Below, one piece after another: positions 22,823 through 26,217 of a stretch of DNA of 64,000 nucleotides (positions within the stretch are counted from its first letter, which is position 1; the number at the start of each line of letters is the position of its first letter). Below the pieces are notes generated by a model. It ran no database searches and was not told where the DNA came from. It saw only the letters and a list, made by a program, of their open reading frames with translations. This stretch comes from Arthrobacter beigongshangensis (GTDB taxonomy: Bacteria > Bacillota > Bacilli > Bacillales_A > Planococcaceae): contig NZ_JADHDX010000004.1 of the NCBI RefSeq assembly GCF_016820585.1, positions 62,001-126,000 on the forward strand, given 5' to 3'. The translations under genes and the position numbers were made by a program.

Positions 22823-22996
22823 TCATTGCTGGCAATTATAAATTTGTCTAATGTCATTTGGAATGTCCCGGAATTCCACTGTTTTAAGAAAACCATTGGA
22901 TTGCATCTTTTGAAGAAACTCCACTAGTTCGATTTTCATTTGATGTAATTGCATATCTCTACAATCAAAATTTAATTGCTCGTTTGCTGTCTCCAT
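22823..22996 (-). CDS. Possible small protein of unknown function
   Basis: A 57-residue frame starting METANEQLNF, with GAAGGGAG about 13 bases upstream; an in-frame ATG at 23029 gives 68 residues but lacks a site. It is mostly helical and charged, and I recognise no family. It has a passing resemblance to short Spo0E-like helical hairpins but lacks the SQELD signature. Coding status uncertain. Confidence 0.3.
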   Translation of the reverse strand: METANEQLNFDCRDMQLHQMKIELVEFLQKMQSNGFLKTVEFRDIPNDIRQIYNCQQ

Positions 22997-23029
22997 GGGT
23001 ACATTCTCACTCCCTTCGAAAGAATTCAT

Positions 23030-23347
23030 ATACGATTTAACACATTAGAAATCACTTTATAATACCCAACCCGCATTTCATTAACGCTACATCAACTAGT
23101 ACTTTTATCTACTCTCTATCCTCGTAGGTTTTCGTAAAATATGTACATTCAATTCGCACGCGAGTGATTCTTTTTTCTTATCAATTATAAACATACCACG
23201 CCTAAAGCTAGAGTTATATTTATTTAGGTTGGGACATTTTTTTCTAAAACAAGCATTATTTTAGTGGTTTCGAAATTAATTTCTCACATTAAAATGGTAT
23301 GATTAGCATTACATATGTACTATGCTATAAAAGAGAGGGATTTACTA
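23030..23347. promoter_or_regulatory. AT-rich leader of the quorum-sensing receptor gene
   Basis: This gap holds no gene. A likely -10 TATGAT is at 23298-23303; a matching -35 is weak (TTAATT, 23276-23281). The -10 is part of TATG-N10-CATA (23298-23315), which recalls, with two extra spacer bases, the PlcR box TATGNAN4TNCATA. It may be an autoregulatory site. Confidence 0.4.
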
Positions 23348-24643
23348 ATGAAAGTTGGTCATTTAATAAGGGCAGAACGAATTAGACAAGACATGAAGCA
23401 ATTAGTACTAGCAAAAGGAATCTGCACGCCTTCTTATCTATCTAAAATTGAACGGAATTTAATTTTCCCTAGTGAGGACATCATTGGTCTATTATTCAAT
23501 CGATTAGGCATAGATTCATCGAAGTTACAAAAGAATGATCAGCAAACTGAAATTGATTTTGAGAAAATGTTAGAGGCTACTTACAAAGAAGTGATTACAA
23601 ATCGGGACGGAAATTTTACTAAACAAAAGCTGGAGTATTTAGAACAGCATAGTCCATTATTTGAAAATCAAACCCTTTACTATACGTATCTTCTAATTAT
23701 GTTAAGGTTTCGGATTATGACGGGGAAAAATTCAGAGGAACTAAAAAAAGAAATTGCTGATCTTGAAGAACTTAGTAAAGACTTTAATCCACGGCAAAGC
23801 TATTTATTTAAATTAAATAAGGCGATGTACTATTATTCTACAGAAAGTCGCAATAAATCGATTGAATATTTAGAAGACGTGTTATTATTAGTTGATGCTA
23901 TTTCATTAGAGGCTTGGGAATTAGCAGAATTGAATTATATGGTAGGGGTGGTTTACACAGCAGACAGTCGTATTTTCGTCTCAATTGAATATACAAGAAG
24001 AGCCCTTGATTATTTTAGAGAAAAATTTTTAATGAAAAGAGTGTTGGAATGTTATATTCTTATTGGGATTACTCAGAAGAAGAGTGAACAATTTCAAGAT
24101 GCGTACGACTCCTACTTTAAGGCAATGCAAATATGCGATGAGTTTAATTTACGTCACGAAAAAGGAATCGTTTACCATAACCTAGGGGCGTTATCTAGTA
24201 TAATGGGCAATAATGAGGATGCAATTTCTTACTATAAACAAAGCATTGACTACAAAACTTATGAAGGGGATCCAGTTATTTCGATATATTGCTTAGTGAT
24301 TGAGTATTCAAAAATGAACGAACGGGAGTTTGTCAATGATTGGTGTGATAAGGGAATTTCATTACTTTTACAGTTAAAAGATAATAACTTCACATCATAT
24401 CACCATCATTTTAAAATTTTTAAATCACTTCATAGTGAACAAGGTTTATCCGAAGAAATTACTGAAGAGGCAATTAAATATTTCATAGCTATACAGGATT
24501 ATAGGTATGTTCACAAATACTATTTAGTACTTGCCGAATGGCATTTTAGTAATCGAAAATACAAACTATCATCGATGTGCTATCAAGAAGCAAATAAGTA
24601 TGAGAGTATTTTCAGGAAAATAAAAAATTGGGAGGATTTATAA
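23348..24643 (+). CDS. RRNPP-family HTH-TPR quorum-sensing receptor (PlcR/NprR-like)
   Basis: A 431-residue regulator. Residues 1-60 are an Xre-type HTH (LIRAERIRQDMKQLVLAKGI, then YLSKIERN), and residues about 75-425 are helical TPR-like repeats (for example CYILIGITQKKSEQFQDAYDSYFKAM and KGIVYHNLGALSSIMGNNEDAISYYKQS). This is the layout of PlcR and NprR, whose TPRs bind a re-imported peptide. The length is closest to NprR (about 420). The ATG at 23348 has GAGAGGG 8 bases upstream; an earlier in-frame ATG at 23315 lacks a site. The gene stop overlaps by one base the start of a secreted propeptide, the standard receptor-pheromone arrangement. Confidence 0.87.
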   Translation: MKVGHLIRAERIRQDMKQLVLAKGICTPSYLSKIERNLIFPSEDIIGLLFNRLGIDSSKLQKNDQQTEIDFEKMLEATYKEVITNRDGNFTKQKLEYLEQHSPLFENQTLYYTYLLIMLRFRIMTGKNSEELKKEIADLEELSKDFNPRQSYLFKLNKAMYYYSTESRNKSIEYLEDVLLLVDAISLEAWELAELNYMVGVVYTADSRIFVSIEYTRRALDYFREKFLMKRVLECYILIGITQKKSEQFQDAYDSYFKAMQICDEFNLRHEKGIVYHNLGALSSIMGNNEDAISYYKQSIDYKTYEGDPVISIYCLVIEYSKMNEREFVNDWCDKGISLLLQLKDNNFTSYHHHFKIFKSLHSEQGLSEEITEEAIKYFIAIQDYRYVHKYYLVLAEWHFSNRKYKLSSMCYQEANKYESIFRKIKNWEDL

Positions 24644-24771
24644 TGAAGAAATTTTTATCTATTCTTTTACTTGTAGTAATTTTGAGTGGGGTTGCAGGTA
24701 ATCAAGCCTTCGCATCCGAAGATAAAGTGCCTAAACTATTCGGAACAACTAGCGTTCCAATTAATTTCTAA
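24643..24771 (+). CDS. Secreted pheromone propeptide (PapR/NprX-like), 42 residues
   Basis: A short gene with GGAGG at 24631-24635, 7 bases before the ATG. The protein opens with a lysine pair and a hydrophobic signal segment (MKKFLSILLLVVILSG), has a plausible signal-peptidase site after AFA at residue 24, and leaves SEDKVPKLFGTTSVPINF. The last seven residues, TSVPINF, follow the pattern of PapR heptapeptides (for example ADLPFEF and NEVPFEF, with Leu/Val-Pro, a hydrophobic residue, an acid or amide, then Phe). By analogy it would be exported, trimmed outside, re-imported by an oligopeptide permease and bound by the TPR receptor encoded immediately upstream. Confidence 0.8.
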   Translation: MKKFLSILLLVVILSGVAGNQAFASEDKVPKLFGTTSVPINF

Positions 24772-24785
24772 CAGTAAGCAAGGAA

Positions 24786-24838
24786 AAGGGCTGTTCAGCA
24801 AGTCAGTGAAAACTGATTTTCTGGACAGCCCTTCTTAG
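24786..24838 (+). terminator. Terminator of the quorum-sensing cassette
   Basis: AAGGGCTGT...ACAGCCCTT forms a long stem with an inner TCAGT/ACTGA helix. It lies 15 bases after the propeptide stop, so receptor and peptide form a closed two-gene unit. Confidence 0.7.
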
Positions 24839-24855
24839 TTCATAGAGCCCCCCAG

Positions 24856-24936: not shown

Positions 24937-25260
24937 ATGAAGCAAGGAGAAACAATCATCCATCATGAATCCCATTTAGACGAAGAAACACTATTTGTGG
25001 TGTCTCAAACATTTAAGGCGCTAAGTGATCCAACAAGAATACGTATTTTAAACTTATTATGTGCGGAAGAGCACTCCGTTAACGATATAGCAGAAGCTTT
25101 AAATTTGGGCCAGTCTGCCGTCTCTCATCAATTGCGCTTCTTAAAAAATTTACGATTGGTGAAGTTCAGAAGAGAGGGCACGACGATTTATTATTCAAAA
25201 GATGACGATCACGTGATGAATTTGCTTACACAAGCTATTGAGCACGCGGCGCATAACTAG
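24937..25260 (+). CDS. czrA: ArsR/SmtB-family metal-sensing repressor (CzrA-like)
   Basis: A 107-residue winged-helix repressor. [14 protein letters not shown] opens the domain, and [24 protein letters not shown] is the recognition helix. The C-terminal helix [18 protein letters not shown] contains the Asp/His and His/His pairs of the alpha-5 Zn/Co site found in CzrA and NmtR. It lies 15 bases before a zinc exporter gene and behind a palindromic operator. Its expected role is to repress both genes until zinc or cobalt rises. Confidence 0.88.
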
Positions 25261-25275
25261 AGGGGAGGGATTAGC

Positions 25276-26217
25276 ATGGGGCACGACCATGATCATACAC
25301 ATGGCGCCAACAAAAAAGTATTGCTCATCTCATTTTTCATCATCACCAGTTATATGATTGTCGAGGTCATTGGTGGTTTTGTAACAAATAGCTTGGCCCT
25401 CTTATCAGATGCAGGGCATATGTTAAGTGATGCTGTATCACTAGGGATTGCTTTGCTTGCTTTTACATATGGTGCGAAGGTAGCGAGTCAAAGTAAGACA
25501 TTCGGCTATAAACGATTTGAAATATTAGCAGCTGTCTTAAATGGTGTGACGTTAATATTCATTGCCTTGTTCATTTTTTATGAAGCGATCCAACGATTTT
25601 CCAATCCCCCTGAAGTAGCGACAACAGGGATGTTAATCGTCAGTAGTATTGGTTTAGCTGTCAATATTTTGGTTGCGTGGATTATGATGCGTGGTGGGGA
25701 TGTGGAAGATAACCTGAATATGCGAGGGGCATATCTACACGTCATTAGCGATATGCTAGGTTCAGTTGGAGCCATAATTGCCGCACTGCTCATGATGTTC
25801 TTTGACTGGGGCTGGGCGGATCCGTTGGCGAGTGTCATTGTTGCTGCACTTGTTTTACGCAGTGGTTATTATGTGACAAAGTCTGGACTACATGTGCTAA
25901 TGGAAGGTACACCGCAAAATGTAGACATGGACGAAGTAATTCAAACGATTCAACAAACACCAGGCGTAAAAGGTATTCACGATTTACATATTTGGTCAAT
26001 TACGAGTGGTTTAAATGCGTTATCTTGCCATATCGTTGTCGATGATCAAATGACAATTGCCGAAAGCGAATTCTTACTGCGTAAAATTGAACATGATCTT
26101 GAACATAAAAATATTCAGCATGTGACGATCCAACTAGAAACGGCTGCACATCAGCATGACAATTCAATATTGTGTACGGTAAAAGCTGAATCATCGGGGC
26201 ATCATCATCACCACTAA
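25276..26217 (+). CDS. czcD: CDF-family zinc/cobalt/cadmium efflux protein CzcD
   Basis: A 313-residue cation diffusion facilitator with six membrane segments. It has a His-rich N-terminus (MGHDHDHTHG), LLSDAGHMLSDAVSL in TM2 and HVISDMLGSVGA in TM5 that supply the HxxxD/DxxxD transport site, a cytoplasmic C-terminal domain (about 215-300) and a terminal five-His run. It exports divalent metals against protons. AGGGGAGGG precedes the ATG, and it is the second gene of the czrA operon. Confidence 0.92.
   Translation: MGHDHDHTHGANKKVLLISFFIITSYMIVEVIGGFVTNSLALLSDAGHMLSDAVSLGIALLAFTYGAKVASQSKTFGYKRFEILAAVLNGVTLIFIALFIFYEAIQRFSNPPEVATTGMLIVSSIGLAVNILVAWIMMRGGDVEDNLNMRGAYLHVISDMLGSVGAIIAALLMMFFDWGWADPLASVIVAALVLRSGYYVTKSGLHVLMEGTPQNVDMDEVIQTIQQTPGVKGIHDLHIWSITSGLNALSCHIVVDDQMTIAESEFLLRKIEHDLEHKNIQHVTIQLETAAHQHDNSILCTVKAESSGHHHHH

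Follow-up and report, generated by a model that had tools for sequence, protein, structure and literature searches.

A receptor gene and a small propeptide gene adjoin each other in the window (the whole stretch of DNA analyzed here, 64,000 nucleotides). The locus raises the question of which part of the propeptide serves as the signal and which gene the receptor controls. An HTH-TPR receptor with a propeptide adjoining is known from PlcR-PapR, and the first-pass annotation had joined a PapR-like peptide tail (TSVPINF) to a receptor of NprR size, adding that what the pair controls is not visible. The close relatives compared here come from Sporosarcina, a genus that includes urease-producing species used for biocement. 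A literature search found no paper joining Sporosarcina with RRNPP, nor with the combination of quorum sensing, peptide and tetratricopeptide. Large surveys, to the extent of their available text, describe many candidate receptor-propeptide pairs (PMC10075063; PMC9765709), and their supplementary tables may hold the Sporosarcina pairs discussed below.

The receptor-propeptide pair

The two genes and the features attached to them are located as follows.

23348..24643, plus strand: receptor gene, 431 aa, with an HTH at residues about 4-53 and nine TPR-type helix pairs at 65-422 (Pfam, AlphaFold2)
24629..24643, plus strand: propeptide ribosome-binding site, TGGGAGGATTTATAATG, which doubles as the receptor's last codons W-E-D-L-stop
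24643..24771, plus strand: propeptide gene, 42 aa, with a signal segment at 1-24, conserved D27..P30-K31 and a variable tail at 36-42
24777..24840, plus strand: hairpin 3' of the propeptide, a probable terminator (folding energy)
Candidate peptides from the propeptide: SEDKVPKLF, VPKLFGTTSVPINF and TSVPINF

The receptor stop codon and the propeptide ATG have one base in common (TAATG). The annotated arrangement of an HTH-TPR receptor overlapped at TAATG by a 42-aa secreted propeptide agrees with these coordinates and with Pfam, which places HTH_3 at receptor residues 7-58 and also finds TPR_12. The signal segment and AFA site that it described are present as a hydrophobic segment followed by AFA/S, and 431 aa is indeed the size of an NprR. 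Its terminator corresponds to a strong hairpin within 24772-24840 (-34.9 kcal/mol, z -7.4, equaled by 0 of 200 shuffles), though a consensus terminator scan made no call on this hairpin, whose T-tract is poor.

For comparison, 60 DNA stretches around related receptors were retrieved. The window and 26 receptors from other Sporosarcina genomes, at an identity of at least 45%, form the set of 27 close receptors used throughout; L060, from another genus, and L061, a second copy in genome G017, lie outside it. L044 was omitted from receptor protein alignments due to a start codon out of frame, which leaves 26 aligned receptors. This receptor carries an extra base after the ATG at the usual place, either a real frameshift or an assembly error.

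Conservation of the peptide frame beside orthologous receptors had been named as one of two checks on the annotation, and a propeptide was found directly 3' of the receptor at all 27. The two genes overlap by 1 nt in 26 of them, the other (L056) having a 4-nt overlap and a TTG start, and W428, E429 and D430 are unchanged across the 26 aligned receptors. Under a strict filter, an adjoining propeptide was found at 43/61 related receptors (the other 18 failing the filter) vs 2/545 control open frames of at least 200 codons from the same loci, and the adjacency is therefore not due to chance. Because the pair is kept in all 27 close receptors, its sequence identifies it as a real RRNPP-type peptide-sensing system. 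No second receptor copy was found in the window's own genome at E up to 1. A mobile origin was considered and rejected: a search gave no phage match and 23 matching plasmid records, with 24.6-30.1% identity among the matches listed (12 of the 23). Receptor residues 100-424 match the phage protein family phrog_5208, whose function is unassigned, at E 2.4e-26; Rap/NprR-like phage receptors may be filed under this family.

An AlphaFold2 model of the receptor, built from 58 sequences, reached a pLDDT of 92. Its top structural match is apo NprR (5dbk; Z 32.6, rmsd 3.2 over 347 residues), followed by several Rap chains (Z 30-31.4) and peptide-bound NprR (28.3). NprR is also the first row of a single-sequence search (E 1e-7), and in a profile search (E 4e-46) it is outranked only by a designed multi-repeat TPR protein. 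NprR-NprX of the Bacillus cereus group is thus the nearest natural system with a solved structure, and it likewise combines an HTH and nine-TPR receptor with an adjoining propeptide gene. Conservation within the family is concentrated in the DNA-binding end, with 34 of 60 HTH residues invariant in the 26 receptors vs 35 of 365 for residues 61-425.

In contrast to this likeness of fold, the residues with which NprR contacts its peptide and Spo0F are mostly replaced in the window receptor. R126, W167, H201, N306 and D309, reported as peptide contacts in the available text of the NprR study (PMC4970707), align to G126, R168, A205, D308 and I311, so that none is kept and the lysine-stacking pair W167, H201 becomes R, A. 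Arginine occupies the NprR-126 place in 6 of the 26 close receptors. The published Spo0F contacts D107, Y118, E188 and Y223 correspond to N107, M118, L192 and F227 (0/4 identical). Among the 26, five have D at the first of these places and one has E at the third, which lies beside a gap where the alignment is unsure. As for the NprR dimer residues, Y410 corresponds to Y412 of the window (Y in 20 and F in 6 of the 26) and N407 to S409. The modeled receptor is therefore NprR-like in fold, with a pocket that is not the classical NprR pocket.

These comparisons bear on the reading that the receptor is a plain NprR, whose apo form blocks Spo0F and whose peptide-bound form activates distant genes, with the divergent gene described below as a passenger. 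The nearest solved fold is that of NprR, and NprR-type receptors are reported from 21 genera in the available text of one survey (PMC9765709). Against it stand the complete lack of identity at the four Spo0F contacts, the replacement of the peptide-stacking pair, and the presence of the divergent gene beside 27/27 receptors although other neighbors change. We regard this reading as unlikely.

Other described systems share some features of the cassette. PlcR-PapR, also from the Bacillus cereus group, pairs an HTH-TPR receptor with a neighboring propeptide, and the window tail fits the pattern x-x-[LV]-P-x-[EN]-F; however, PlcR has about 290 aa (293 aa in the solved chain) and five TPRs, a number taken from the available text of PMC12700828, whereas the window receptor has 431 aa and nine helix pairs. 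Rap-Phr of Bacillus has the nine-TPR fold (Rap chains at Z 30-31) and an exported propeptide nearby, but Rap is described as lacking an HTH in the text available from PMC9765709, while the cassette receptor has a strongly conserved HTH_3 at residues 7-58.

The divergent gene and the shared regulatory region

Upstream of the receptor, a small gene on the opposite strand and the elements lying between the two genes were located.

22823..22996, minus strand: divergent small-protein gene, 57 aa, with an uncertain choice of start codon (the frame opens at 23029); probable output gene
23190..23198, minus strand: extended -10-like box TGGTATGTT of the divergent promoter, TGnTAT in 27/27
23229..23238, plus strand: half-site 1, TTGGGACATT, identical in 27/27
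23278..23286, plus strand: half-site 2, AATTTCTCA, inverted and imperfect in the window
23295..23303, plus strand: extended -10-like box TGGTATGAT of the receptor promoter (from sequence and alignment; no good -35)

The small gene was found beside all 27 close receptors, 26 times by pattern and once (L038) by eye; L038 is absent from the small-protein alignment and from the codon-position count. In the 26 members counted, differences at codon positions 1, 2 and 3 number 3056, 1375 and 5160, and it is on this account that the ORF looks like a selected coding gene. A profile of the small protein matched 28 of 68 Sporosarcina genomes, namely the 27 carriers of a close receptor and one orphan (G058). 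In the carriers the gene is always single, divergent and 216-373 bp from the receptor. The co-occurrence of receptor and small gene is strict (Fisher p 4e-18, with genomes counted without kinship correction) and is owed partly to shared descent. A search of 261 genomes from the family, with matches accepted up to E 0.001, added none. By comparison, among neighbor families of at least 80 aa within 8.5 kb, the commonest reaches 15 of 29 loci and the second commonest 8. L060 and L061 have a receptor and a propeptide without the element or the divergent gene, so not every relative includes this gene. The statement that the target is not visible can thus be revised: a divergent small gene that shares the regulatory region and stands beside 27/27 receptors is the probable target.

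The genes on the other side of the pair were considered and rejected as targets. The ArsR-CzcD genes lie behind the hairpin, have their own promoter match (11/12) and, of 29 loci, are common only to L039. They occupy 24937-26217 on the plus strand, where Pfam finds an ArsR-type regulator next to a cation-transporter-like gene, and have the same place in this sister locus.

The small protein has no convincing relative among the databases searched. Its 26 members gave no convincing match in Pfam, NCBIfam or PHROG (best E 0.003, 0.0054 and 0.015, each in 2/26), none to PDB sequences at E up to 10 and, in a plasmid search, none to plasmids. The predicted structure is mainly one long helix, in a weak model (pLDDT 70) that found no match in a fold search, a result of little weight given the quality of the model. 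Two known kinds of small regulatory protein found no support. For a Spo0E-like phosphatase, no SpoOE-like Pfam match was found in the 26 members at E<=1, and the profile-profile probability against 10 Spo0E proteins from four genomes was 1.3%, where a control comparing halves of the family gave 99.7%. Similarly, a SinI anti-repressor had no SinI Pfam match in the 26 members at E<=1 and a profile-profile probability of 0.4% against 30 SinI/SinR segments (one row of which, L239, is out of frame). The Spo0E result also sets the cassette apart from AloR-AloP of Paenibacillus, which likewise has an HTH-TPR receptor with the propeptide next door. AloR13 is reported to control a small spo0E-like gene within its own locus, but the available text on AloR does not mention a palindrome shared with a divergent gene (PMC7425212), and the cassette's small protein is not Spo0E-like by profile.

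A further small ORF starting with MRIE or MRRIE lies between the element and the small gene, at 23109-23159 (minus strand) in the window. Some loci of the window's branch have it (MRIED...), and it was also seen in L034, L035, L036, L037, L039, L040, L042, L044 and L047. In the window and L039 it has only 16 codons, and the window copy is a remnant.

Between the receptor and the divergent gene lies a palindromic element, TTGGGACATT-N39-AATTTCYCA, in which the inverted half-site AATTTCYCA begins 49 bases on from the start of TTGGGACATT. The first half-site is found 114-132 bp from the receptor start in all 27 loci, and each of its columns carries 2.0 bits vs 0.78 for the preceding 40 columns. 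When the whole element is read on both strands, G044 has at most one mismatch and the window has 0 and 3. A search with TTGGGACATT-N-TTTCYCA and a free gap of 33-53 matched 20 of the 68 Sporosarcina genomes, each with a single match at this promoter and a constant 58-bp span; a backward control of the bipartite pattern gave 1 match. In the remaining 7 of the 27 carriers the second half-site is changed. The spacing toward the divergent gene is nearly constant, with 40 nt from the minus-strand TGnTAT to the AATGTCCCAA half-site in 26 of 27 loci and 39 nt in L059. A sigma-70 scan found no promoter pair at the receptor's extended -10-like box.

The TTGGGACATT decamer occurs 12 times in the window's own genome, vs 3 times for its backward control, an excess that counts against the circuit proposed below. 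Further sites would be expected for a global regulator, yet the other 11 copies lie inside open frames and the copy in the element is the one outside, which argues for a local rather than a global regulator. NprR has a large regulon, which includes the neighboring protease gene nprA, whereas in the cassette it is the divergent small gene that shares the element.

It was also considered that the element and the divergent gene are real but that the element serves another regulator, which controls both genes. This is improbable: the bipartite site occurs once per genome and only at this promoter, as fits a local regulator, and the genomes with the element and the divergent gene are exactly those that carry a close receptor. 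The receptor encoded beside the element therefore remains the preferred candidate to bind it.

The propeptide signal and the mosaic ancestry of the receptor

The propeptides of the 27 close receptors are 42 to 48 aa long and differ in the length and letters of their tails. Six residues are invariant across them (M1, K2, K3, A24, D27 and P30), and D27 and P30 are the sole residues after the cleavage site that never vary. The AxA site itself was not detected by pattern in 5 of the 27. D-x-x-P-[KRE] is present in 27/27 and P-[KR] in 25/27, while the end SVPI[ND]F occurs in only two, the window and L039. The broader end pattern [LV]P-x-[EDN]-F was likewise found in 2/27 close propeptides and in 2/47 examined, and a PapR-type signal was rejected as a feature of the family. 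Conversely, P-x-[ILVMPTA] after residue 18 was found in 47/47 candidate propeptides, of which 20 are distant (mean 25 and maximum 35 in 2000 shuffles); the count includes the 47 of 62 receptors with a candidate propeptide, the other 15 having given none.

The propeptide of one distant receptor (L087:4514-4669, minus strand) carries SEPDHPKIV three times in tandem, the last copy reaching the C-terminus at KIV. Repeated mature peptides are known for NprR-type propeptides in the available text of PMC9765709, and these repeats are a good guide to the mature core. The minimal NprX signal is given as SKPDIVG in the text available from PMC4970707; its core P-D-I-V resembles the P-K-[LIV]-[FV] of the cassette, and the shared P-x-I-V suggests a likeness between the NprX signal and the propeptide core. 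Against this likeness stand the 5 of 27 propeptides in which the AxA pattern was missed and the usual C-terminal place of Phr signals (PMC7425212).

The annotation had proposed testing receptor and tail for covariation. The SVPI[ND]F tail and the receptor tree disagree, a clade of window and L039 being rejected in that tree (AU p 0.002), and this result led to the finding of mosaic ancestry in the receptor. The segment concerned is approximately as follows.

23703..24735, plus strand: segment of different ancestry, covering the TPR domain and the propeptide signal segment and DxxPK (sliding identity, split trees with AU tests, rpoB tree)

In an rpoB comparison of 8 genomes, the sister of the window is G040, the genome of L039 (93.8% identical), and G042, the genome of L034, is at 85.1%. 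In the whole-receptor tree, however, the window groups with L034 and not with L039. Splitting the gene separated two signals. Receptor nt 1-291, the HTH part, place the window with L039 (support 99/98; L034 rejected, p 0.0027), whereas nt 343-1293, the TPR part, place it with L034 (support 100/99.9; L039 rejected, p 0.00007). L039-like sequence makes up the upstream flank, the HTH part, the peptide tail, the hairpin and the downstream genes, and L034-like sequence the TPR domain together with the propeptide signal segment and VPK. The ancestry switches a second time in the propeptide, around the codons that separate VPK from LF. Compared at fourfold sites, the window and L039 show a difference of 0.23 for rpoB, of 0.11 for the HTH part and of 0.45 for the TPR part; the HTH figures here and below rest on small counts (21-27 sites). 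L034 itself, at 83% in the TPR part, was not the donor of this segment, and around nt 960-1080 mixed patches point to a more complex history.

Judged by these trees and identities, the window receptor is a recombinant, with its DNA-binding end, flanks and peptide tail from the sister species and its ligand-binding domain and propeptide front from another lineage. L037 and L040 are likely a second case of in-place domain replacement, with fourfold-site differences of 0.033 in rpoB, 0.17 in the HTH part and 0.43 in the TPR part. Their loci are 96% identical over 10.9 kb, receptor included.

It follows from the ancestry split that TSVPINF did not arrive with the pocket expected to read it. The annotated PapR-like tail is thus not borne out as the signal, given that SVPI[ND]F is found in 2/27 propeptides and D-x-x-P-[KRE] in 27/27, and that tail and ligand-binding domain come from different recombination segments. 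As the tail is rare, the core conserved and the tail in the other segment, the combination of an NprR-sized receptor with a PapR peptide is mostly a coincidence of two sequences.

In a different reading, the mature signal is the tail at the C-terminus, which varies (TSVPINF in the window), as for Phr and PapR; D-x-x-P-K is then only a processing or export motif, and the variation of the tail marks signal types. According to the available text of PMC7425212, most Phr signals come from the C-terminus, and that of AloP13 consists of its last 6 residues. Many sister receptors also have similar tails, such as the YTIQK group and three ending in NPLD, NHLD and NHLK. On the other hand, the tail of the window differs from that of L034, its sister in the receptor tree, the window tail is separated by ancestry from its pocket, and behind the cleavage site it is D27 and P30 alone that never vary. 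Possible but doubtful on this balance, a tail signal is passed over here for one centered on the conserved core.

Proposed circuit

We consider it likely that the locus is a compact RRNPP-type peptide-sensing cassette, in which a divergent small gene, a palindromic operator, a receptor and a propeptide are arranged around one switch and work as proposed here. The propeptide would be exported, cleaved after AFA and then shortened to a small peptide with a D-x-x-P-K-hydrophobic core. This peptide would be re-imported and bind the TPR groove of the receptor, whose HTH would bind the pair of inverted TTGGGAcATT half-sites, spaced by about 50 bp; as with NprR, the bound form may be a tetramer. The bound receptor may set the divergent promoter, in which an extended -10 is accompanied by a half-site near -50, where activators typically bind. 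It may also tune its own promoter, where half-site 2 lies over the -35 region. The output would be the level, up or down, of the small helical protein, which may act by binding another protein. The divergent gene is taken as the main output because the geometry of the element is tied most strictly to the divergent promoter. As to the sign of the response, our guess leans toward activation by the peptide.

If so, the cassette would offer a complete testable circuit within 2 kb, comprising a signal, a sensor, an operator and one candidate output. The chimeric window copy, moreover, would be a natural experiment on which part of the propeptide the receptor reads. A broader proposal, which we hold to be evenly poised, is that the dedicated output is a new family of 50-60 aa helical proteins encoded divergently from a receptor-bridged operator. 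The receptor would diversify by an in-place swap of its ligand-binding domain while the DNA-binding end, operator and output gene stay fixed, and in the window copy, a natural chimera under this proposal, pocket and tail would come from different parents.

A wider regulon was sought with the element. Allowing up to 3 mismatches gave 6-11 matches per genome in 5 genomes (some at the same place on both strands) vs 3-5 for the backward control in four of them and 2 in G044; one such place, near a distant receptor in G044, was inspected, and no further target was taken. One weak element-like match with 3 mismatches lies at L093:3557-3614 (G044 C1:1347556-1347613), where it precedes by about 95 bp a 187-aa protein whose start is signal-like. 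It is close to a distant second receptor-propeptide pair in G044 and, from its sequence, may be a related switch.
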